A stretch of 64,000 bases of DNA. Source: Rhizorhabdus phycosphaerae. GTDB lineage: Bacteria; Pseudomonadota; Alphaproteobacteria; Sphingomonadales; Sphingomonadaceae. The notes beneath the pieces were generated by a model. It had not been told where the DNA came from and searched no databases. It worked only from the letters and a program-made list of their open reading frames with translations. Location of the stretch: the NCBI RefSeq assembly GCF_011044255.1, contig NZ_CP049107.1, forward strand, positions 248,001 to 312,000, read 5' to 3'. Within the stretch, counting starts at the first letter, position 1, and each line of letters opens with the position of its first letter. The translations under genes and the position numbers were made by a program. This document shows positions 11,388-57,012 of the stretch, in pieces.

Positions 11388-14300
11388 TCAGCCGACCGCT
11401 ACGACGAAGTCGGTCGTTTCGAACGCCGTCGCCGTTGCCGACCGCATCTCGATGATGGCGGTGATGTCCCCGGCATTTCCGGCGGCGTTGTAGAAGAGGT
11501 AGGTCGTGGCACCCACTTGCGTGGCCACGATGTCCTGCGTTCCGGCGTGATTGTCGAGAAGCTGCTGCGCTGCCGTCCGCGCCGCCGTGACCGACGCCTG
11601 CGTGCCACCCTGCAGCACATCGCCTGCGCTGACCGCGAAGTTGAGCATGATGCTGTCGATGCCCTGCTCGAAGTCGGTGATGGCGGTGTAGAAGGCCGGC
11701 GTGACGAAATTTCCGGCCGAGGCCTCGGTGAACTGGAAGATGTCGCTACCGGTGCCGCCCGTCATCACGTCGACCCCGGCACCCGCGACCAGCCTGTCGT
11801 TGCCGAGCTCTCCCCGCAAGATATCGTTGCCGCTGTCGCCGAACAGGACGTCGTCGCCCTTTCCGCCGCGCACGATGTCGTTGCCGTCACCGCCGTGGAT
11901 CAGGTCGTTGCCCTGATTGCCGTTGATGCTGTCCGTTCCATTCCCGCCGTCGATGGTATCGGCGTCGTCACCGCCCTGAATGCGGTCGCGGCCGACGCCA
12001 CCGGTGATGCTGTCGTTTCCGGCGTGTCCGAAGGCGACATTCACACCGTCACCCGTTTCGATCAGATCGTCTCCGTCCGCATCGTTGCCGGCACCGGCAA
12101 AGCTATTGCCATAGATATGGTCGGCGCCGTCGCCGCCCAGCAGCGTATCGTTGCCGCCTTCCGATGTGCTGTTGCCGACCGCGCCGCCATAGAGATAGTC
12201 ATCGCCTGCTCCGCCCACGAGGCTGTCGTCGCCTGCGCCACCGGCGAGCGTGTCGGCTCCCGATCCCGCCTGGAGGACGTCTGCGCCCGCCAGGCCGAGC
12301 ACCATGCTATCGCCCGTTCCGGTCGTGACGAGCTCGTCGGCATCGCTACCCTCATAGCTGAGCTGCGTGGGCGGCAGGCTTACAGCGACGCTGTCGTTGA
12401 TCGCCGTCACCGTGATCGACAGGCTTGCCGTGGTGCTGGCGCCCGCGCTGTCCTGGACGATGTAGTCGAAACGCTCCGTACGCTGCTCGCCATTCGGGAG
12501 GGCGTCGGTGGCGTCGCCGTCGGCCGCATAGCTATAGCTGCCGTCGCGTGAGATCGTCAGCGTGCCCCACTGCCCCTCCACGACTGTCGCCTGCGCACCG
12601 ACCGTGACCCCGCCGACCGAGAGCAGGGTAAGGCGGTCATATGCCTGGGCATCCTGATCGTTCGACAGGATGTTTCCGGTGATCGACGCATCCTCGTCGA
12701 CGAGGTCCGAATCCGCGGTCGCGACCGGTGCGTCGTTACTCGTGACATAGCCCGGCGATCCGATCTGATTGGTGTCGGTCGCAGCGGTGATCGCCTCATT
12801 CAACCCGGAGGCGCTGAGCGTGGAGATGGTGCCGCCGTTGAGCGCCGCGCCATTGTCCAGCGACGCAAGGGTCGATGTCGCGCCGAAGCTGACGCTCGCC
12901 TGGAGCGTGCCATTTGCGTCGTAGAGGTTGACCGCGTCTCCGTTGCTGCTCAGCCCGATGCCGCTTCCGGTGTAGGTTCCGAACCGCAGGCCTTCGGGCG
13001 CCTCACCCCCGAACCAGGTCTGGACGAAGGCCGCGATGGCGGTCTCGGGTTGGGAGGTTTCGAGGAAGATCACCGACTCGCCTGCCGCGATGCTGGTGAT
13101 GCCGCTCAGCGCGACGGCATTGCCGAAGGAGGCCGAACTGTCGTCCACCTTCCAGCCGGTGAGGTCGATCGCTGCCGCAGTGCTGTTCGTTACCTCGAAC
13201 CAGTCCGCGCCGATCGCCGTACCGCTCGACCAGGGGGCGACCTCCGACACGAAGATGCGTCCCACCGATCCCGGCGAACCGATCTCATCGCTGTCACCGG
13301 GGGCGTGGAAGGCGCCGTTCACGTCGACCGCGCTCAGCGTCGAGACCGCGCTTCCATTGGCGAAGGCCGCGTTGTTGAACGTCTGGAAGGTTGGCCCGGA
13401 CGGCGATGCGCCGAAGGAGATGTTGGCCTGCAGCGTTCCGCCGGCATCGTAGATGTTCACCGCGTCGCCGCCGGTCCCGAGGCCGATGCCGCTGCCGGTA
13501 TAGGTGCCGATCTGGAGATTGGTGGGCGCCGTGCCGCCGAACCAGTTGGCCACGAAGGCCGAGGTTGCGGTGGTGGGATTGCTGCCTTCCACGAAGATGA
13601 CCGACTCGCCGGGGGCGATGCTGGTGATTCCCGCCAGCGCGACCGCATTGGCGAACAATCCGCTATTGTCGTCGACCTTCCAGCCGGTCAGGTCGATCGC
13701 GGTGGTGCCGCGATTGGTCAGCTCGAACCAGTCGGCACCGACCGGGCTGTCGCCGCTCGACCAGGGCGCGACCTCGGTTACATAGATTTCCTGGCGTTCG
13801 GCGACGTCCGTCACCGTGACCGTGATGGCTTGGGTTGCGCCGTTCGTGCCGTCGGATGCGCGCACATCGACCAGATAGGCATTGTTGCGATCGGTATCCC
13901 CCGGTGCTTCGAAGTCCGGCGCCGCGAGGAAACTCAGCGCTCCCGTCGACGCGTCGATGCCGAACAGCGCCTGATCTGCGCCTCCGACGATGGAGTAGGA
14001 GACCGTATCGCTCTGCGGGTCTGTCGCGGCGACGGTGCCGACGGTGGTCTGGTTCTCGGCCGGGGTGAAGGATGCGGGCGAAGTGAACCCCGGTGCGACC
14101 GAATTGGCGGTGACGATGAACGATACGGAGCCGACGTCGCTCTTGAAATCGTCCAGTCCGAAGCTCGTGCCATTGTCGCGAACGCTGTAATCGAAGCTCG
14201 CCTGTCCGGAGAAATTGGCGGTAGGCGTGAAGACGATGGTGGAGCCGACGATCGACGCACTGCCCCCGACGGCGTTGCTGACATTGGTAATGGTCAACGT

Positions 14301-16676
14301 CTGACCATCGTCGTTGAGCGGACCGGCGCTGTCATTGGCGAGGAGCGTTGAGACGTCGATCACATAGCTGCCGCCTTCGGCGACCGGCTGCGGCGTGTCG
14401 TCTGTCGCGACCGGCGCTTCGTTGACCGCAACGAATTCCCCGGGCGAACCGAGCTGGTTTGTGTCCCCAGGTGCCGCATAAGCCGGGCTCGCCAGGGCTA
14501 CCGAACTGCGGACGGCCAGCGCGGTGTCGTTGAGCGCGGTGGCATTTTCGAAGGTGGCGAGAGTTGCACCCGACGCCCCGAAGCTCACCGTTGCCTGCAG
14601 CGTGCCGCCGCCGTCGTAGAGATTGACGGCATCGCCGCTCCCACCGAGGCCCACGCCGCTTCCCGAATAGGTGCCAATCTGGAGCCCTGCGGGCGCCGTG
14701 CCGCCGAACCAGGTGTCGATGAATGCCTGCACCGTCGTCGTCGGCGTCGACGTTTCGAGGAAGATCACCGATTCACCCGGCGCGATCGTCGTGATCCCGC
14801 TCAGCGCTACCGCAGCATTGGGCGACTGCGAATTGTCGTCCATCTTCCAGCCGGTGATGTCGAGCGCGAAAGCGGTGCCGTTGGTGACCTCGAACCAGTC
14901 GGCGCCGATGCTCGTGCCGCTCGACCAGGGGGCGACCTCGGAGATGAAAATCCGTCCGACGGTGCCGGGCGAGCCGATCTCCGCAAAGTCGGTCGCTGCG
15001 ACGAAACCGCCATTCGGACCGACGAGGCTGAGCGTCGTTACGGCCGAGCCATTCAGCCCTGCGGCATTGTCGAACGTCTGATAGACCGGGCCTGCGTCGG
15101 CAGCGCCGAAGCTGATGCTGGTCTGCAGTTCGCCTGTACCATCATAGAGGTTGAGTGCGTCCCCCCCGGTGCTCAGACCGATGCCGCTGCCCGAATAGGT
15201 ACCGATCTGGAGCCCGGCGGGGGCGGTGCCGTCGAACCAGGTCTCGATGAACGCCGTCACGACGTCCTGGCTCGACCCTTCGATGAAGATGACCGATTCC
15301 CCGGCGGCGATGCTGGTGACGCCGCTGAGCGCGACCGCGCTGGCAAAGAGGCCGCTGCTGTCGTCGACCTTCCAACCGCTGATGTCGATCGCGCTGCCGG
15401 TGGGGTTGGTGATCTCGAACCAGTCGGCGCCGACCGGGCTGTTGCCGCTCGACCAGGGGGCGACTTCGGAGATGTAGAGGGAGGAGACGCCACCGCCCTC
15501 GTTCACCACATTGGTTACGCCGAGCGTGTACGAGATGCTGGCATCGGGCGAGGACCCCAGATTGGGGTCGTCGACATTGACCGTGAAGCTGTAGCTCGAC
15601 TGGGTTTCGAAATCGACGGTGGTTCCGGCGCGCAGGTAGACGCCGGTATTGTCGACCTCGAACAGCGCGGCGTCGGCACCGCTAAGGGTGAAATTGTTCA
15701 CGCCCTGGCCATCGTCGGCGATCGCGATACCGGCGACCTTGATCCGGCTGGTCGTGGAGACATTCTCCTCGACCGCATCGAGCGCGGCGAGGAGGCTGAT
15801 CGCGGTCGGAGCCTCGTTCGCCGTGTTCGCGGGCGCATAGACCCATAATTGCGGATGATCCGCATCGCCGCCGCCATTCTCGCTGACGACATAGATGAAG
15901 CCATCGGCATCCATGGTGATGCCTTCATGCTGCTGGTTTTCGACCGGCAGCGGATTGCCGCTGTCCGAATAGAGGTTCATTACGCTGAGGACATTGCCGT
16001 CGCGGTCCACCTCGAGGATGCGCGCCGATTCCTGGCTCAGGATCAACATGGTTTCGTCCAGGGGATCGATGTTCGACAGCGCGAAAACGTCGGCGATGTC
16101 GGCGATGCCCAGATTGTCGGGGGCAAAAAGGTCCACGGCATTTTCGGTCGAGGACGAGCCGTTGGTGGCGGTTCCGGCGTCGAAATCGACGTCCGACTGG
16201 AACACCGAAATTGGCTCCTTTTCCTTGACGATGATATAGCCATCGGTGAGCGGATCGTAGCTGATCCCTTCGAAGCCGAGATTGGGGGAGAAGGTGCCCA
16301 TGTCGACCGTTTTCGCGGTTTCGCGGGTCAGGGTCGTTCCGGCCTGGTAGGTGAACAGCACGACATTGCGGTCGCGCTCCTCGGTCATGACGAACTGGCC
16401 GTTGCCGATATAGGTAAGCCCTTCGGGATCGTAGAACTCGGTCCCCTGCGGGCTGCTGCCCGTCGCCAGGGTCATCGAGTCGATCAGCTCGCCCGTCTTG
16501 CTGATCTGGACGATCGACGTGCCCGCGTCGCCGACGACGAACAGCGTATCGGTGTCCTTGTTATAGGTGACCGCCGACACTTCCTGCGCGAGCACGCTGC
16601 CGGTCGGCGCCTGCGTCCGCGTCGGCTCGGGAAGATCGTAGCGACCAACCCGCACATATGTCGAAAGATCAACCAT
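11388..16676 (-). CDS. Giant RTX protein: beta-propeller, cadherin-like, four lamin-tail modules
   Basis: 1762 residues without an N-terminal signal peptide. Residues ~25-290 resemble SdiA-regulated/phytase-like beta-propellers (VSAVTYNKDTDTLFVVGD, YDPEGLTYIGNGQFVMTEE). A cadherin-like segment (~295-395) follows. Lamin-tail-like modules begin near residues 400, 574, 962 and 1139, each with (S/T)EVAPWSSG...GADWFE(I/V/L)TN and SIAAGESVIF. Modules 2 and 3 are separated by Ig/cadherin-like domains with NEAPVATDD. A VCBS-like domain (~1312-1430), RTX repeats of GGxGxDxL type (~1440-1650) and a serralysin-like C-terminus follow. RTX repeats bind calcium and mark type I secretion, so the protein is probably surface-bound or secreted. 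No type I exporter is nearby. The substrate is unknown. AGGGGGG precedes the ATG. Confidence 0.85.
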   Translation of the reverse strand: MVDLSTYVRVGRYDLPEPTRTQAPTGSVLAQEVSAVTYNKDTDTLFVVGDAGTSIVQISKTGELIDSMTLATGSSPQGTEFYDPEGLTYIGNGQFVMTEERDRNVVLFTYQAGTTLTRETAKTVDMGTFSPNLGFEGISYDPLTDGYIIVKEKEPISVFQSDVDFDAGTATNGSSSTENAVDLFAPDNLGIADIADVFALSNIDPLDETMLILSQESARILEVDRDGNVLSVMNLYSDSGNPLPVENQQHEGITMDADGFIYVVSENGGGDADHPQLWVYAPANTANEAPTAISLLAALDAVEENVSTTSRIKVAGIAIADDGQGVNNFTLSGADAALFEVDNTGVYLRAGTTVDFETQSSYSFTVNVDDPNLGSSPDASISYTLGVTNVVNEGGGVSSLYISEVAPWSSGNSPVGADWFEITNPTGSAIDISGWKVDDSSGLFASAVALSGVTSIAAGESVIFIEGSSQDVVTAFIETWFDGTAPAGLQIGTYSGSGIGLSTGGDALNLYDGTGELQTSISFGAADAGPVYQTFDNAAGLNGSAVTTLSLVGPNGGFVAATDFAEIGSPGTVGRIFISEVAPWSSGTSIGADWFEVTNGTAFALDITGWKMDDNSQSPNAAVALSGITTIAPGESVIFLETSTPTTTVQAFIDTWFGGTAPAGLQIGTYSGSGVGLGGSGDAVNLYDGGGTLQATVSFGASGATLATFENATALNDTALAVRSSVALASPAYAAPGDTNQLGSPGEFVAVNEAPVATDDTPQPVAEGGSYVIDVSTLLANDSAGPLNDDGQTLTITNVSNAVGGSASIVGSTIVFTPTANFSGQASFDYSVRDNGTSFGLDDFKSDVGSVSFIVTANSVAPGFTSPASFTPAENQTTVGTVAATDPQSDTVSYSIVGGADQALFGIDASTGALSFLAAPDFEAPGDTDRNNAYLVDVRASDGTNGATQAITVTVTDVAERQEIYVTEVAPWSSGDSPVGADWFELTNRGTTAIDLTGWKVDDNSGLFANAVALAGITSIAPGESVIFVEGSNPTTATSAFVANWFGGTAPTNLQIGTYTGSGIGLGTGGDAVNIYDAGGTLQANISFGASPSGPTFQTFNNAAFANGSAVSTLSAVDVNGAFHAPGDSDEIGSPGSVGRIFVSEVAPWSSGTAIGADWFEVTNSTAAAIDLTGWKVDDSSASFGNAVALSGITSIAAGESVIFLETSQPETAIAAFVQTWFGGEAPEGLRFGTYTGSGIGLSSNGDAVNLYDANGTLQASVSFGATSTLASLDNGAALNGGTISTLSASGLNEAITAATDTNQIGSPGYVTSNDAPVATADSDLVDEDASITGNILSNDQDAQAYDRLTLLSVGGVTVGAQATVVEGQWGTLTISRDGSYSYAADGDATDALPNGEQRTERFDYIVQDSAGASTTASLSITVTAINDSVAVSLPPTQLSYEGSDADELVTTGTGDSMVLGLAGADVLQAGSGADTLAGGAGDDSLVGGAGDDYLYGGAVGNSTSEGGNDTLLGGDGADHIYGNSFAGAGNDADGDDLIETGDGVNVAFGHAGNDSITGGVGRDRIQGGDDADTIDGGNGTDSINGNQGNDLIHGGDGNDIVRGGKGDDVLFGDSGNDILRGELGNDRLVAGAGVDVMTGGTGSDIFQFTEASAGNFVTPAFYTAITDFEQGIDSIMLNFAVSAGDVLQGGTQASVTAARTAAQQLLDNHAGTQDIVATQVGATTYLFYNAAGNAGDITAIIEMRSATATAFETTDFVVAVG
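11730..12360 (-). repeat. RTX calcium-binding nonapeptide repeats
   Basis: Many tandem copies of GGxGxDxhx-type nonapeptides are encoded (for example GGAGDDSLV, GGAGDDYLY, GGDGNDIVR, GGKGDDVLF). They lie just before the C-terminal export region of the giant protein. In this family they fold as calcium-loaded parallel beta-rolls outside the cell. Confidence 0.9.
12745..15480 (-). repeat. Four intragenic lamin-tail-domain repeats in two pairs
   Basis: The coding segment SEVAPWSSG recurs near 15455, 14930, 13765 and 13235. Within each pair the spacing is about 530 bp. Units 1 and 3 carry SPVGADWFE, while units 2 and 4 carry the one-residue-shorter SIGADWFE or AIGADWFE. The alternation suggests that an ancestral two-unit block was duplicated together, with a different linker domain between the blocks. 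Confidence 0.8.
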
Positions 16677-51609: not shown

Positions 51610-52518
51610 TTATTCGAGCATTTCGCAAAGAGCGGGGCTCAGCGCTTCGTCATCGGCGACGATTCGTACCGCCAGGCCTTCGCGCTCGGCGAGCCGCATT
51701 CCGGCATCGGCGCCGAGCACCATCAGCGCGGTGGCCCAGGCGTCGGCATAGGCAGCCTTGTCGTGAATGACCGATACCGAGCGCAGGCCGTTGGCAACCG
51801 ACGCGCCGGTGCGGGGATCGAGCGTGTGCAAACCCCGGCGATAATGTCCGGAGGTCGCGACGGCGATCCCGTGAAGAGCGATGCGGACCGGCGCAATGGG
51901 CTTTCCGGGGGGCGCTTCAAGATCGACCCACCAGGGCTGGCCATCGGGGCGGACGCCGCGTCCGACAAGTTCGCCGCCGATTTCGACAAGCATGTGGCCT
52001 ACGCCTGCCGCTGCCAGATCATCCGCTACGGCGTCGACCGCATGGCCTTTGGCAACGCCCGAAAAGTCCAGTGCAAGACCGCCGGGCTGAACGATTCGCC
52101 CGCCCGCATAGGGGAGGCGCCGCCAGCCCGCCGTGCGAAGGGCATCACTTGGATCGGTCGTGGCGTTCGTTGCGGCAGAGGCGGGGCCGAATCCGGCCAG
52201 GTCGACGAGCCGGCCCAGCGTCGGATCGAAGGCACCGTCGCTTCGCTGCGCGACGTCCAATGCGGTTTCGAGGACCGTGCGAAAATCGCTGGGCAGCCGG
52301 ACCTCGCTGCCCTGCGCTGCGCGATTGAAGCCGCTGATGACCGAGTCGGCGTGCCACTGGCTCATCTCGATGATGATCCGGTCGAGCGTCGCGTCGATGA
52401 TCGCACCGACGTCTGCTTTACTGAGCGAGGCAGGCGCGAAGTAGCGAACCGACCAGAGCGTGCCCATGGTTTCGCCGGACAGGGTTGTGACCGGACGGGT
52501 CGGGTCGACGCTTCGCAA
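51610..52518 (-). CDS. apbE: FAD:protein FMN transferase (ApbE)
   Basis: Attaches FMN covalently to a threonine or serine of target proteins. 302 residues. GETMGTLWSVRYF, ISGFNRAAQG, FDPTLGRLVDL, LDFSGVAKGHAVDAVAD, MLVEIGGELVGRG and a C-terminal AYADAWATALMVLGAD with the metal-binding Asp are family blocks. There is no signal peptide or lipobox, unlike many ApbE proteins, so the location is uncertain. The start is uncertain: TTG 52518 lies 41 bases after the preceding stop, and no ATG precedes the domain. The DUF2271 protein two genes upstream carries the matching acceptor motif. Confidence 0.92.
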   Translation of the reverse strand: MRSVDPTRPVTTLSGETMGTLWSVRYFAPASLSKADVGAIIDATLDRIIIEMSQWHADSVISGFNRAAQGSEVRLPSDFRTVLETALDVAQRSDGAFDPTLGRLVDLAGFGPASAATNATTDPSDALRTAGWRRLPYAGGRIVQPGGLALDFSGVAKGHAVDAVADDLAAAGVGHMLVEIGGELVGRGVRPDGQPWWVDLEAPPGKPIAPVRIALHGIAVATSGHYRRGLHTLDPRTGASVANGLRSVSVIHDKAAYADAWATALMVLGADAGMRLAEREGLAVRIVADDEALSPALCEMLE

Positions 52519-52559
52519 GGCCTCTGCGTCGACCCTTGGGGGCAGGGCGATCCGCAGGC

Positions 52560-53462
52560 TCAGGGGAGCAGCACCTCGACCGTGGTGGTGTAGGATAGGC
52601 GCCGGCTCGTCGCGCGGGCGACAGTCGGCTTGTCGTCGCTTGCTGAGGCGTTGATCCAGTACATGCCCGCTTCCGGCCAGTCGATCTTCGCGACACCATC
52701 CGCGCCGGTCACGATTTCACGCGCGCCGTCGTCGTTGCGATAACGCTTGCCGCCCGGCACGACGCTGAGTTTGAGCCCGGCCGCCGGCTTGCCGTCGATC
52801 AGGAAGCGGAAGCTGGCCGTCTCTCCCACGACCAGTTCATCGGGGTGCGTGATCGGCTGGAATTCGATGCCGGCACCCATTGGCTTGAAAACGGCATCGC
52901 TCGGCTGGTTTGCGGTCACGTAGATTTCGTTGCGCGCGATCATCTGCGTGAGCTTCACGTCCGTCGCGTTGGCGGGGATGTCGTCGACGGACTGTACCGA
53001 TCGCATCGGCGGTTGCGGCGGGGCACCGGGGGTGCCATTTGCGCCAGGCCCACCGGGGCCGCCGGGACCACCTGCCATGGCCGGACCCCTGGGCCGTCCG
53101 CCGACGCGGACTTCCTCGCCGTCGATCTTGAAGCTGCCAGCCACGCTGTTCGTATAGGTGCCGATCTTCCAGGTTCCCGGCTTGTCGAGCTTGACGTCGA
53201 ACACGGACCTGTAACGGCCCGTCGCGGCGTTTTCGATCTTCGCTTCGCTGCCATCAGGCGCCCACGCCTTGACCCCGTCGAGGCGCATCGGCTGATGGTC
53301 CGCGAAGAAGAGGTCGTTCGACGCGGCTGCATCGACCGTGACCCAGTTGTTCGTGCCGGAGAAGACGGTCGCATTGGGGACCATCCACTGCCGGTGCGCC
53401 GAGGCCAGTGTCGGGATGGCGATCAACAGGGTGGCGGTGATCAGGCGTGCGGACATGCGCAT
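52560..53462 (-). CDS. DUF4198 periplasmic protein
   Basis: 300 residues. The signal peptide (MRMSARLITATLLIAIPTLA) ends ASA, so the mature protein would start at His23 (HRQWMVPN). Two beta-sandwich-like halves are joined by a Gly/Pro-rich linker at about residues 121-152. The second half includes PITHPDELVVGETASFRFLIDGKP-type DUF4198 blocks and ends in YTTTVEVLLP. DUF4198 is related to metal-uptake accessory proteins such as NikM-like domains. An N-terminal histidine could bind metal; that is inference. ATG 53462 has AAAGGA upstream. It lies between the DUF2271 and ApbE genes. Confidence 0.85.
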   Translation of the reverse strand: MRMSARLITATLLIAIPTLASAHRQWMVPNATVFSGTNNWVTVDAAASNDLFFADHQPMRLDGVKAWAPDGSEAKIENAATGRYRSVFDVKLDKPGTWKIGTYTNSVAGSFKIDGEEVRVGGRPRGPAMAGGPGGPGGPGANGTPGAPPQPPMRSVQSVDDIPANATDVKLTQMIARNEIYVTANQPSDAVFKPMGAGIEFQPITHPDELVVGETASFRFLIDGKPAAGLKLSVVPGGKRYRNDDGAREIVTGADGVAKIDWPEAGMYWINASASDDKPTVARATSRRLSYTTTVEVLLP

Positions 53463-53473
53463 CGTCGGTCCTT

Positions 53474-53956
53474 TCAGCGTGCGGCGAGGGTGATGGTGCC
53501 AAGCTCGGCCTTGCCGGAGGCCTTGGCGGCCTTGGCAGGCAGGGCGATCGGCAGGGAGACAAGCTCGCGGCCCCCGGTCTCGCGAGCGGCTTCCACATTC
53601 AGCACATAGGCGCCGGGCTTGACGTCGTCGGGGATCGACAGGACATGGCTGCCGGGCGCGCGGGTCGCCCCGCTGATACCGTCGGCCGGCATCGTCATGC
53701 TCTTGCCGCCCTTGCGCCACCAGGCCCGCAGGTCCGACAGCCATTTGGTGCCGGGCTCTCCACCGTTCTTCTTGACCTGATACCAGACGGACAATGTGCG
53801 GATCGCACCGCCGCCCACGGGCTCGAGCCAGACGGCGACATAGGGGCGATGATATTCGGCCACCTTGAGCTGAGGTATCGCGATGGTGACGGTGCCACCG
53901 GCGAAAGCGGGGGAAGCGATAGACGATCCCAGAAGAATGAGGGGAGTAGCGCGCAT
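53474..53956 (-). CDS. DUF2271 protein with ApbE flavinylation motif
   Basis: 160 residues. The signal peptide (MRATPLILLGSSIASPAFAG) ends near AFA. WWRKGGKSMTMPADGISGAT contains D92-G-I-S-G-A-T98, which exactly fits the DxxSGAT pattern of ApbE acceptor proteins, so Thr98 is the predicted covalent FMN site. The gene lies nine bases after the PepSY gene, and the flavin transferase is two genes downstream. Probable role: a periplasmic, FMN-bearing electron carrier working with the PepSY membrane protein. Function is inferred from motif and context. Confidence 0.88.
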   Translation of the reverse strand: MRATPLILLGSSIASPAFAGGTVTIAIPQLKVAEYHRPYVAVWLEPVGGGAIRTLSVWYQVKKNGGEPGTKWLSDLRAWWRKGGKSMTMPADGISGATRAPGSHVLSIPDDVKPGAYVLNVEAARETGGRELVSLPIALPAKAAKASGKAELGTITLAAR

Positions 53957-53965
53957 GGCAGGACC

Positions 53966-54652
53966 TCAGTGAACGAAGAACAGGATGAGAAGGAGAGGGG
54001 CGAGCAGGCCCAGGCCGACGAGCGGCCAGGTCGACGGGCGCGGCTTTGCGTGCATGTAGAGCAGCATAAGGCCGGTGAGCGTGAAGAGGACGCAGGCTCC
54101 CGCGAAGATGTCGATGAACCAGCCCCAGGCGCTTCCCGCATTGCGGCCCTTGTGGAGATCGTTCGCCCAACTGATCCAGCCGCGGTCGGTAATTTCACCG
54201 GTAACCGCTCCGGATTGGCGGTCGATGCTGATCCACGCGTCACCGCCCGGGCGAGGGAGCGCAATATAGACTTCGTCGTCTGACCATTCGGCGGGCTTTC
54301 CGCGCGGATCGAGACCCAGTCGCGCGTCCACGAACGCCGCGACGGGGGGCGGCAGGGCAGCATCGGCGCTGGCCGGCTGCGCAAGCCGGGGAAGCAGTGG
54401 CGCGGGAAGCTGTGCAGCCAGGGCCGTCGTGACCGGCGTCGCGCCGATCGTCGCGGCGTGGTTCAGCGTGATGCCTGTCGCCGCGAACAGAAGCATCCCC
54501 ATCAGCGAGACGGCAGCGCTCATCCAGTGCCAGCTGTGGAACTGTTTCAACCACCAGCCACGCGAGCGATACCAGGGCTTGGGCACCGGACGCCGCTTCG
54601 GTGCGGGATGCGCTTGGGCTGCTGTCAGCGGAATGTCGGCGGGGCTGTTCAC
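53966..54652 (-). CDS. PepSY-associated transmembrane protein
   Basis: 228 residues. A first membrane helix follows RGWWLKQFHSWHWMSAAVSL, and two more are near the C-terminus (FIDIFAGACVLFTLTGLMLL and LVGLGLLAPLLLILFFVH). A PepSY-like periplasmic part lies between (YIALPRPGGDAWISIDRQSG, then WISWANDLHKGR). His residues near the membrane helices (HSWHW, LNHAA, LHKGR) resemble haem ligands of PepSY ferric-reductase-like proteins, but haem binding is not proven. It starts at GTG 54652, with a Fur-like inverted repeat 40 bp upstream. First gene of the PepSY-DUF2271-DUF4198-apbE operon. Confidence 0.87.
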   Translation of the reverse strand: MNSPADIPLTAAQAHPAPKRRPVPKPWYRSRGWWLKQFHSWHWMSAAVSLMGMLLFAATGITLNHAATIGATPVTTALAAQLPAPLLPRLAQPASADAALPPPVAAFVDARLGLDPRGKPAEWSDDEVYIALPRPGGDAWISIDRQSGAVTGEITDRGWISWANDLHKGRNAGSAWGWFIDIFAGACVLFTLTGLMLLYMHAKPRPSTWPLVGLGLLAPLLLILFFVH

Positions 54653-54691
54653 ATTGCCCGGCTAACCGGATCGATTCGGCAGTGCAATAGC

Positions 54692-54712
54692 TAATGCGAA
54701 CCAGTCGCATTA
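54692..54712. promoter_or_regulatory. Fur-like inverted repeat upstream of PepSY operon
   Basis: TAATGCGA and TCGCATTA form perfect 8-base arms around ACCAG. The site is 40 bp before the PepSY start and downstream of the TonB receptor gene. The AATGCGA half-sites resemble Fur-regulated sites of other proteobacteria, and the operon is of the kind associated with iron uptake. It would allow the operon to be switched separately from the receptor. Confidence 0.5.
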
Positions 54713-54765: not shown

Positions 54766-57012
54766 TCAGAAACTCTTGCGCAGTTCGACGCCGATGATGC
54801 GCGGTTCGTTGATCATGCCGGTCAGATTGTTGAAATCGATCGCGCTGACGCTTCGGATCTGGTTGGTGATGTTCCGTGCAAACGCCGCGACTTCCCACTG
54901 CGCGTCCGCCTTGTACCCAACGCGAAGACCGCCCTCGAGCAGCGACCGCCCCCGGAATTCGAGTGCCTCGTAGAGGAAATAGTTGACCCGGCTGCGATAG
55001 GCCCAGTCGGTATAGGCATAGATCTCGCCCCCGCCGACCGGGACCGAGTATCGCGCGGTGACGTTCGCGACATAGCGCGGCGCCTGGGGCAGGTCATTGC
55101 CGTCGATGATGGCGAGGCCGGCGGCGTTGAGCGGGTCGGTGACCGTGCAGAGCGAGCCGCAGGGAGCAACCGCGATCGACTTGTCGCGGATCTCGGTAAA
55201 GTTCCAGCTCCCGCCCGCCGTCAGGAGGAACTGGCTGCTAGGCCGCAGTTCCAGTGTCGTCTCGAGACCGTAGCCGACCGCCTTGTCGGCGTTGAGCAGC
55301 CGTGCCGAATTGACCGCGCCGCCGACCGCCGTGAGCTGCAGATCCTTGGTGCGATACCAGTAGCCGTCGATGTCGAAGGTGAAGAGTCCGCCTGCCAGCG
55401 CGCCTTTGAAGCCGGCTTCACCCGAGATGGTGGTCTGCTTGCGCGCGATCGACGGCGTGCTGAAGAAAGTGACGCGGTCCTGGATCGCCGGACCGAGATA
55501 GCCGGTCGCAAAGCGTGCATAGGCGTTGATGTCGGGAGTGATCGCATAGGTTGCGCTGGCATCCCAGCTGACATTGCTCGCCTTGACGCGATTGGTCAGC
55601 GGTAGTGAAACCGCGATGAGCTGGCTCGAGATGCTCGACGCCGCTAGCGCCGGGTCGAGCGAGATCGTGTCGCGCTTCTTGTCGTGCGAGTAGCGGATAC
55701 CGGCACGCAGGGTGAGTGCGTCGCTCGCCTTATACTCGCCCGAAGCGAACAGTCCGATATTCCGGTTCTTGTTGTCGTGCAGGATGTTGCTGACGCGCGT
55801 GCCGGTGCCGTCATAGGCATATTCGCTATAGTCGAGATTCTGGTCGAAATAGTAGGCGCCGACCTGATAGCGGAATCCCCCGAGATCCTCGCTTGCGAAG
55901 CGCAGTTCCTGGCTGAACTCCTTGGGCTTGGTGCGTCCGCCGGTGTTCACCGGGAACAGCGCCACGCCAAGGCCGAGGGCCGGGAAGCCATAGGTCGCCG
56001 CACCGTCTATGTCGCCGGTGCTCTCGACATTGGCCTTCTCATAGGCAGTGGTCGAGAACAGCGTGCCCACGCCGTCGATCGCCCATTCGAGGCGGGCGTT
56101 GGCGCCGAACTGCTTGAGGTCCTGGCTGGTCAGTCCGTCCAGCGAGACGCGGTTCTTCTTGAAGCCCGCCGAGAAGCGGTTGCTGCCTTGCTGGAAGAGG
56201 CCAGCTCGGAAGACGCGCGGGGTGCCGTCGAGGTCGCGGGCATGGACGTTGAACAGCGCGCTGAACTCGCCCGACGTATATCCGAGCTGGAGGCGACCGG
56301 CGAGATCGCGATAGCCTTCGAGCTTGCGGTCGGCGAGGGTCGGGGAAGCGGTGTTGGTTACCCAATCATCGCGACGCTGCAGCAGGCCCGAAGCACGGAA
56401 GTTGAGACCTTCGCCGATCGGACCGGTGATCGCGGCCTCGGCATTGACCGTATTGTAGGTCCCCCAGCTGATGCTGCCATAGCCGCCGAAGGTGTCGCTC
56501 GGTTTGGCCGAGTTGAGCTTGACGACACCCGCCGGCGTGTTGCGGCCGAACAGCGTACCCTGAGGGCCGCGCAGCACCTCGACACTGGCAAGGTCGAACA
56601 CCGGGAAGCTTTTGAGCATCGGATTTTCGAGGGCTACGTCGTCATAGACCACCGAGACAGGCTGGGCGGCGTTGGGGTCGAAGTCGGTGTTACCGAGGCC
56701 CCGAATGTAGAAGCGCGGGAAGGTGCGGCCGAACGAACTTTCGATCTGCAGGCTCGGCGTGCGCGCCGAGAGGAAGCGGATGTCGAGACCGCTGGAGTTG
56801 ATCACCGCGAGCTTTTCGCCGCCGATCGCCGTCACCGCGACGGGTACGTCCTTGATGTTCTCGGCGCGGCGGGTGGCCGTGACCACGATCTCGGCGCCTT
56901 CGCCGCTGTCGTCTGCTGCCGCCTGCGCAAAGGCCGGCGATGCGAACGGAGGAAACAACAGGGCGCCGGCGAGCAGCGCCAGGCGAATGGACGTCGAACG
57001 ATCGGTAGACAT
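54766..57012 (-). CDS. TonB-dependent outer-membrane receptor
   Basis: 748 residues. The signal peptide ends near SPAFAQ, followed by a TonB-box-like segment EIVVTATRRAENIKDVPVAV. The plug domain contains IRGLGNTDFDPN and VEVLRGPQGTLFGRNTPAGV. The 22-strand barrel ends IGVELRKSF with the terminal aromatic signature. ATG 57012 with AAGGGG upstream is preferred over the open frame to 57099. The substrate is unknown; the downstream PepSY/ApbE operon suggests iron or an iron chelate. Confidence 0.92.
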   Translation of the reverse strand: MSTDRSTSIRLALLAGALLFPPFASPAFAQAAADDSGEGAEIVVTATRRAENIKDVPVAVTAIGGEKLAVINSSGLDIRFLSARTPSLQIESSFGRTFPRFYIRGLGNTDFDPNAAQPVSVVYDDVALENPMLKSFPVFDLASVEVLRGPQGTLFGRNTPAGVVKLNSAKPSDTFGGYGSISWGTYNTVNAEAAITGPIGEGLNFRASGLLQRRDDWVTNTASPTLADRKLEGYRDLAGRLQLGYTSGEFSALFNVHARDLDGTPRVFRAGLFQQGSNRFSAGFKKNRVSLDGLTSQDLKQFGANARLEWAIDGVGTLFSTTAYEKANVESTGDIDGAATYGFPALGLGVALFPVNTGGRTKPKEFSQELRFASEDLGGFRYQVGAYYFDQNLDYSEYAYDGTGTRVSNILHDNKNRNIGLFASGEYKASDALTLRAGIRYSHDKKRDTISLDPALAASSISSQLIAVSLPLTNRVKASNVSWDASATYAITPDINAYARFATGYLGPAIQDRVTFFSTPSIARKQTTISGEAGFKGALAGGLFTFDIDGYWYRTKDLQLTAVGGAVNSARLLNADKAVGYGLETTLELRPSSQFLLTAGGSWNFTEIRDKSIAVAPCGSLCTVTDPLNAAGLAIIDGNDLPQAPRYVANVTARYSVPVGGGEIYAYTDWAYRSRVNYFLYEALEFRGRSLLEGGLRVGYKADAQWEVAAFARNITNQIRSVSAIDFNNLTGMINEPRIIGVELRKSF

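Follow-up and report, generated by a model that had tools for sequence, protein, structure and literature searches.

In a 64,000-nucleotide stretch of the Rhizorhabdus phycosphaerae chromosome (NZ_CP049107.1, positions 248,001 to 312,000; hereafter the window), four minus-strand genes encode a PepSY-type membrane protein, a DUF2271 protein, a DUF4198 protein and ApbE, a transferase for flavin mononucleotide (FMN). This operon is a further member—a Sphingomonas-type copy—of a published class of PepSY–DUF2271–DUF4198–ApbE operons, and it probably encodes a Fur-repressed, periplasmic electron-transfer system of the ferric-reductase type. Its features, in window coordinates, are as follows.

54692-54712, no strand: palindrome of 21 base pairs (bp), TAATGCGACTGGTTCGCATTA (TAATGCGA-CTGGT-TCGCATTA), the putative site of Fur binding for the operon
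53966-54652, minus strand: PepSY_TM_like_2 membrane protein, 228 amino acids, GTG start (PF16357, 252 bits; PF03929, 43 bits)
53474-53956, minus strand: DUF2271 protein, predicted periplasmic, 160 amino acids, Sec-type signal peptide MRATPLILLGSSIASPAFA (PF10029, 139 bits)
53663-53683, minus strand: acceptor motif D92-G-I-S-G-A-T98 within DUF2271, read from the sequence (Thr98 codon 53665-53663)
52560-53462, minus strand: DUF4198 protein, predicted periplasmic (PF10670, 176 bits), predicted mature N-terminal histidine at codon 53396-53394
51610-52563, minus strand: ApbE, FAD:protein FMN transferase, 317 amino acids from the proposed CTG start (PF02424, 230 bits)
52560-52563, minus strand: CTGA overlap of the DUF4198 stop codon TGA (52562-52560) and the proposed apbE start codon CTG (52563-52561)
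54766-57012, minus strand: upstream TonB-dependent receptor (PF00593/PF07715), probably outside the system

In the scheme that we propose, iron shortage would cause Fur to leave the palindrome and the operon to be transcribed. ApbE would move FMN from flavin adenine dinucleotide (FAD) to Thr98 of the DUF2271 precursor in the cytoplasm, before Sec export, and the PepSY protein would use histidine-ligated haems to pass electrons over the inner membrane. These electrons would probably come from an NAD(P)H flavoreductase, encoded by a fifth gene in many relatives and represented here by a distant, shortened homologue elsewhere in the genome. Reduced FMN-DUF2271 would then pass them to periplasmic Fe(III), either as such or as a chelate, with DUF4198 binding metal by its N-terminal histidine and Fe(II) entering through FeoB.

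Gene identities and conservation of the operon

The Pfam scores of all four genes lie far above the curated cut-offs, in line with an earlier sequence-only reading that had described four closely spaced minus-strand genes of these families. The operon is flanked on the same strand by the TonB receptor and rpoD upstream and by purS and purQ downstream. Because a palindrome-bearing gap of ~110 bp follows the receptor, the four genes look like a transcription unit separate from it; a promoter scan did not find a sigma-70-type site. The homologous loci compared came from named genomes and from sets of whole genomes at three levels: the same family (judged Sphingomonas-like by the relatives named in it), the class and the phylum. 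The order PepSY–DUF2271–DUF4198–ApbE was seen in nearly all examined loci holding all four genes (~150 loci). Among 250 family genomes, DUF2271 was present in 74 and ApbE in 87, with ApbE found in every one of the 74 DUF2271 genomes (Fisher p = 2e-50, uncorrected for shared ancestry). The four-gene arrangement is not due to chance, and the co-occurrence in related genomes that the sequence-only reading had anticipated was indeed found.

The DUF2271 sequence DGISGAT, earlier recognized as an ApbE acceptor motif, fits the [S/T]GA[S/T] motif for which PMC8238504 gives experimental support. Its assignment was corroborated by retention of the acceptor threonine or serine in 118 of 119 relatives. 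A leader-like N-terminus was detected on DUF2271 in 111 of 121 relatives; twin-arginine export was rejected, as the twin-arginine motif was flagged in none of 79. We also considered loss of the acceptor in operons without apbE and rejected it, as the threonine or serine is still present there. Sequence searches of the PDB with the PepSY protein and of solved structures with DUF2271 gave no meaningful match. As a separate observation, proline replaces the alanine beside the acceptor threonine (e.g., SGPT, TGPT) in ~30 of 99 DUF2271 proteins that occur with an operon ApbE (loci L174, L176, L177, L179, L182, L183, L205 and others), compared with 0 of 19 from loci without a detected operon ApbE, a contrast for which phylogeny may account.

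In the PepSY protein, histidines 39, 42, 65, 167, 201 and 228 are conserved in 94-100% of 78 relatives, and we consider it a putative trans-membrane haem electron carrier, with these residues as possible haem ligands of the FoxB-like kind. A fifth gene, encoding a flavodoxin/NAD-binding reductase, has homologues in ~41 sampled loci. It is absent from the window's operon, and an in-operon reductase was thus rejected: the only homologue found in this genome is a shortened one, encoded at G000:C1:895 kb. This 352-amino-acid protein, with a probable membrane segment, shares 40% identity with the fifth-gene reductase over 268 residues and does not include its flavodoxin part. Its gene adjoins one of the NAD-glutamate-dehydrogenase type; in ten relatives, a homologue of this neighbour flanks the PepSY operon. 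A rearrangement may have separated the reductase from the operon, and the protein encoded at 895 kb would be the most likely, if weak, candidate for the electron donor.

DUF4198 carried a leader-like N-terminus in all 117 sequences examined. In an alignment of 43 sequences and with cleavage as predicted, mature His1 is nearly invariant, His34 invariant and His184 conserved in at least 90%. An AlphaFold2 model (predicted local distance difference test, pLDDT, 91) matched Zcp (PDB 9MHI-9MHO; Z 19.9) and the nickel-bound IsDUF4198 (PDB 9GCB; Z 15.2), with which the protein shares a common fold, with the next-best fold matches at Z of about 7. DUF4198 proteins with an N-terminal histidine are published as metal proteins (PMC12537917), and IsDUF4198 likewise exposes such a histidine after signal cleavage. 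These matches bear on the rather improbable alternative that the operon is a handling system for a metal such as nickel or copper with DUF4198 as chaperone, or that its PepSY protein is a siderophore permease. It would agree with the binding of nickel by IsDUF4198 with a dissociation constant of 18 nM (PMC12537917), with the solution of Zcp, the closest fold match, with zinc, copper and cobalt, and with the proposal that Alteromonas PepSY proteins are siderophore permeases (PMC7190382). However, the Caulobacter equivalent is Fur-controlled and shows a fitness effect in ethylenediaminetetraacetic acid (EDTA), the operator-like box of the operon is common to Fiu-like and haem-type receptors in this genome, and a permease would need no flavinylation machinery. 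Moreover, the ligands in IsDUF4198 are His1 and His18, in contrast to the conserved His1, His34 and His184 here, so the second metal ligand would differ.

Iron control and receptor partners

The sequence-only reading had placed a Fur-like site ahead of the operon, and such a site is present: the form TGCRAN5TYGCA has a single match in the 64-kb window, at 54692-54712. Across the 4.33-Mb genome, the pattern TGCRANNNNNTYGCAWTW gave 11 hits, equivalent to 7 sites in 6 regions, while a reversed-pattern control gave 0 matches. One region, with two sites, precedes a receptor that best matches the catecholate receptor Fiu and scores under the Fiu model cut-off and over that for TonB-siderophore receptors. 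Another box is followed by a receptor whose score exceeds the haem/haemoglobin receptor cut-offs, one lies ahead of a DUF6628 gene and aconitase, and two box regions lie beside genes without a clear iron role. The same type of box was found upstream of PepSY in L101-L105, L123, L124, L263, L267, L292 and other loci. Genes for Fur and FeoB are present in the genome. Since the palindrome is shared with a Fiu-like siderophore receptor and a haem receptor, the operon is linked to iron, and the assignment of the palindrome as a putative Fur operator, placing the operon under predicted iron control, holds.

The two sites ahead of the Fiu-like receptor form a tandem pair of Fur-like palindromes (G000:C1:2362969-2363011, L258, in the window's own genome). 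The PiuC/YbiX-type dioxygenase of this genome is encoded at 1,564,863, apart from the Fiu-like receptor; in many relatives the two adjoin.

In the sequence-only reading, the adjacent TonB receptor imported the iron chelate that the operon reduces. The receptor adjoins the operon here, and in L263, L267 and L292 an orthologue with 78-83% identity separates rpoD from the operon. In L101, L102, L103 and L262, however, the receptor is missing from that place and rpoD directly abuts the operon; moreover, no Fur-like box precedes the receptor in the four genomes checked (4/4), in which PepSY retains its box, and of 120 sampled loci, just one has a relative of the receptor in the vicinity of the operon. 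As the receptor is missing in four relatives and lacks the box, it is not supported as a partner; we rejected it as a conserved one and regard chelate delivery through it as very improbable. By comparison, the same 120 loci include 44-47 with a Fiu/CciT-like receptor and 48 with a PiuC/CciO-like dioxygenase near the operon, each count including one locus from the window's own genome. PepSY genes neighbouring CciT/CciO have been reported previously (PMC12004943). The comparative data favour this siderophore pair, Fiu/CciT and PiuC/CciO, over the neighbouring receptor.

The iron link thus stands, but not via the adjacent receptor. What survives of the mechanism in the sequence-only reading is a flavinylated periplasmic carrier fed by the PepSY protein under iron control, which agrees both with the box shared with iron and haem receptors and with the published reading of the class (PMC8238504, PMC3751524, PMC12004947); its chelate source has to be given up.

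The apbE start codon and the site of flavinylation

The sequence-only reading had started apbE at TTG 52518. Instead, the gene probably starts at CTG 52563-52561, overlapping the DUF4198 stop codon, an assignment favoured because alternative starts are lacking and the overlap is conserved. The CTGA in which the end of the DUF4198 gene overlaps apbE recurs in 47 loci, and other relatives have ATGA, GTGA or TTGA at the equivalent place. In 24 of the 47 CTGA loci, ATG, GTG and TTG are lacking from -45 to +60; a second, partly overlapping sample contained 28 CTGA loci, 13 of them without an alternative start. In such GC-rich genomes C is frequent at the third codon base, and a preference for C is per se no evidence. 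The count of the RIALP-type motif in alignment A2 is circular, as its rows were selected by that motif. An AlphaFold2 model of ApbE from the CTG (pLDDT 94.8) is ordered over residues 1-20 (blocks with pLDDT 95 and 94), with a strand at 4-6 and a helix at 13-17, most of which ordered segment a start at TTG 52518 would delete. A programmed frameshift yielding a DUF4198–ApbE fusion was judged unlikely: the CCCC run that precedes TGA here is lacking at the few junctions read in relatives. If the CTG start is confirmed, gene callers restricted to ATG, GTG and TTG truncate ApbE and lose its ordered N-terminal strand and helix.

ApbE covers positions 1-264 of the 266 in the PF02424 profile, and its sequence matched solved ApbE structures with E-values down to 8e-47. 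By a simple hydrophobicity rule, a heuristic distinct from SignalP, no signal peptide or lipobox was detected at any candidate start. The same rule, applied to loci that are related by descent, found a clear leader on the free-standing operon ApbE in 1 of 95 loci, borderline scores located within the conserved N-terminal motif in 4 of the 95, and a leader in 0 of 75 in a second sample partly overlapping the first; ApbEs from other contexts scored positive in 23 of 30 cases and ApbE–DUF2271 fusions in 4 of 4. Such fusions, in which ApbE and DUF2271 form one protein with a signal-peptide-like N-terminus, were observed in L208-L210. Exactly one ApbE is encoded in 68 of the 74 DUF2271-bearing family genomes. 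The complete genome of the window likewise has a single DUF2271 and a single ApbE, and a second, exported ApbE was rejected, none being present.

Because the sole ApbE of the genome lacks a signal peptide while DUF2271 is predicted to be exported, we infer that FMN is attached to DUF2271 in the cytoplasm, before export. We tentatively extend this to Pseudomonadota operons of this kind, with a confidence a little short of even: they might flavinylate a Sec-exported carrier before export by means of a leaderless ApbE, made in many Sphingomonadaceae from a stop-coupled CTG. If so, a covalent flavoprotein would cross SecYEG already carrying FMN, or a separate export route would exist; a leaderless ApbE facing an exported acceptor in a single-ApbE genome offers a clean test of both the flavinylation site and Sec passage. 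The leaderless operon ApbE, a trait found family-wide, and the CTG start are apparently new, neither having been found in the literature searched. That search, with most subscription journals outside its reach, also found nothing on flavinylation in the cytosol ahead of export.

An unlikely alternative keeps the operon and its function but has ApbE act in the periplasm, reached by a non-classical exit (e.g., carried by an exported protein), such that DUF2271 receives its FMN only once exported, in the manner of the NQR/RNF systems. Characterized ApbEs of exported targets do work in the periplasm (PMC12052999), the ApbE–DUF2271 fusions have leaders, and in genomes including G590, G676 and G694 the DUF2271 motif is retained alongside one lipoprotein-type ApbE encoded elsewhere. 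The leader is nevertheless missing from 94 of the 95 operon ApbEs and from all 75 of the second sample, and the model folds the ApbE N-terminus with high confidence. We know of no carrier protein for ApbE. In lineages with a lipoprotein-type ApbE elsewhere, DUF2271 is presumably modifiable in the periplasm too, and lineages may differ in the side of the membrane from which FMN reaches the acceptor. For the operon described here, attachment of FMN before export is the preferred reading.

Several points weigh against the proposed scheme as a whole. The electron donor is not encoded in the operon, and the single homologue lacks the flavodoxin part. In three of the six box regions, no gene clearly devoted to iron uptake adjoins the site, and IsDUF4198 prefers nickel, so DUF4198 need not handle iron (PMC12537917). 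Concerning the site of flavinylation, a cytosolically expressed ApbE failed to replace the periplasmic one in the system reviewed in PMC12052999, and some genomes with an apbE-less operon hold a single ApbE with a lipoprotein-type leader elsewhere while keeping the acceptor. Finally, support in this organism is computational throughout.

Elsewhere in the window, the 1762-amino-acid product of 11388-16676 (minus strand) combines an SdiA-regulated domain and four lamin tail domains with bacterial immunoglobulin/cadherin-like domains and seven RTX calcium-binding repeats; this large protein is probably secreted or located at the cell surface. A phage family search with one large protein of the window gave no match.

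Relation to known systems

The sequence-only reading knew of no defined pathway for this arrangement; yet the class is published (PMC8238504; PMC3751524; PMC12004947). Meheust 2021 (PMC8238504) describes 3,220 PepSY-like flavinylation clusters, 2,833 of them with DUF2271, 1,500 with DUF4198 and 231 with a TonB receptor, links them to iron transport and Fur, and reports a DUF2271 homologue to be flavinylated on the motif threonine. The operon in the window has the same content—PepSY, DUF2271 with the [S/T]GA[S/T] motif, DUF4198 and ApbE—and iron association, with a PF03929/PF16357 protein beside PF10029 and PF02424 and a leader on DUF2271. In contrast to that system it has no NAD-binding partner, and a leaderless ApbE within clusters or a CTG start is not discussed in the text available from that source. 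With thousands of clusters, the class is widespread, and it ranks among the foremost candidate systems for reducing iron in the periplasm.

The cytosolic ApbE of Klebsiella, which serves a soluble fumarate reductase (cited in PMC12052999), likewise has no signal peptide; its acceptor, however, is cytosolic, whereas DUF2271 here carries a Sec-type signal. The closest parallel in gene order is Caulobacter crescentus CC3059-3063 (CCNA_03155-03159), where the genes for the membrane protein, DUF2271, DUF4198 and ApbE follow one another in the same order. These genes are iron-repressed and bound by Fur in electrophoretic mobility shift assays (PMC3751524), and insertions in them lower fitness in EDTA (PMC12004947). 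The Caulobacter operon differs in having a fifth gene, encoding a sulfite-reductase-type flavoprotein, of which R. phycosphaerae has only the shortened homologue at 895 kb.

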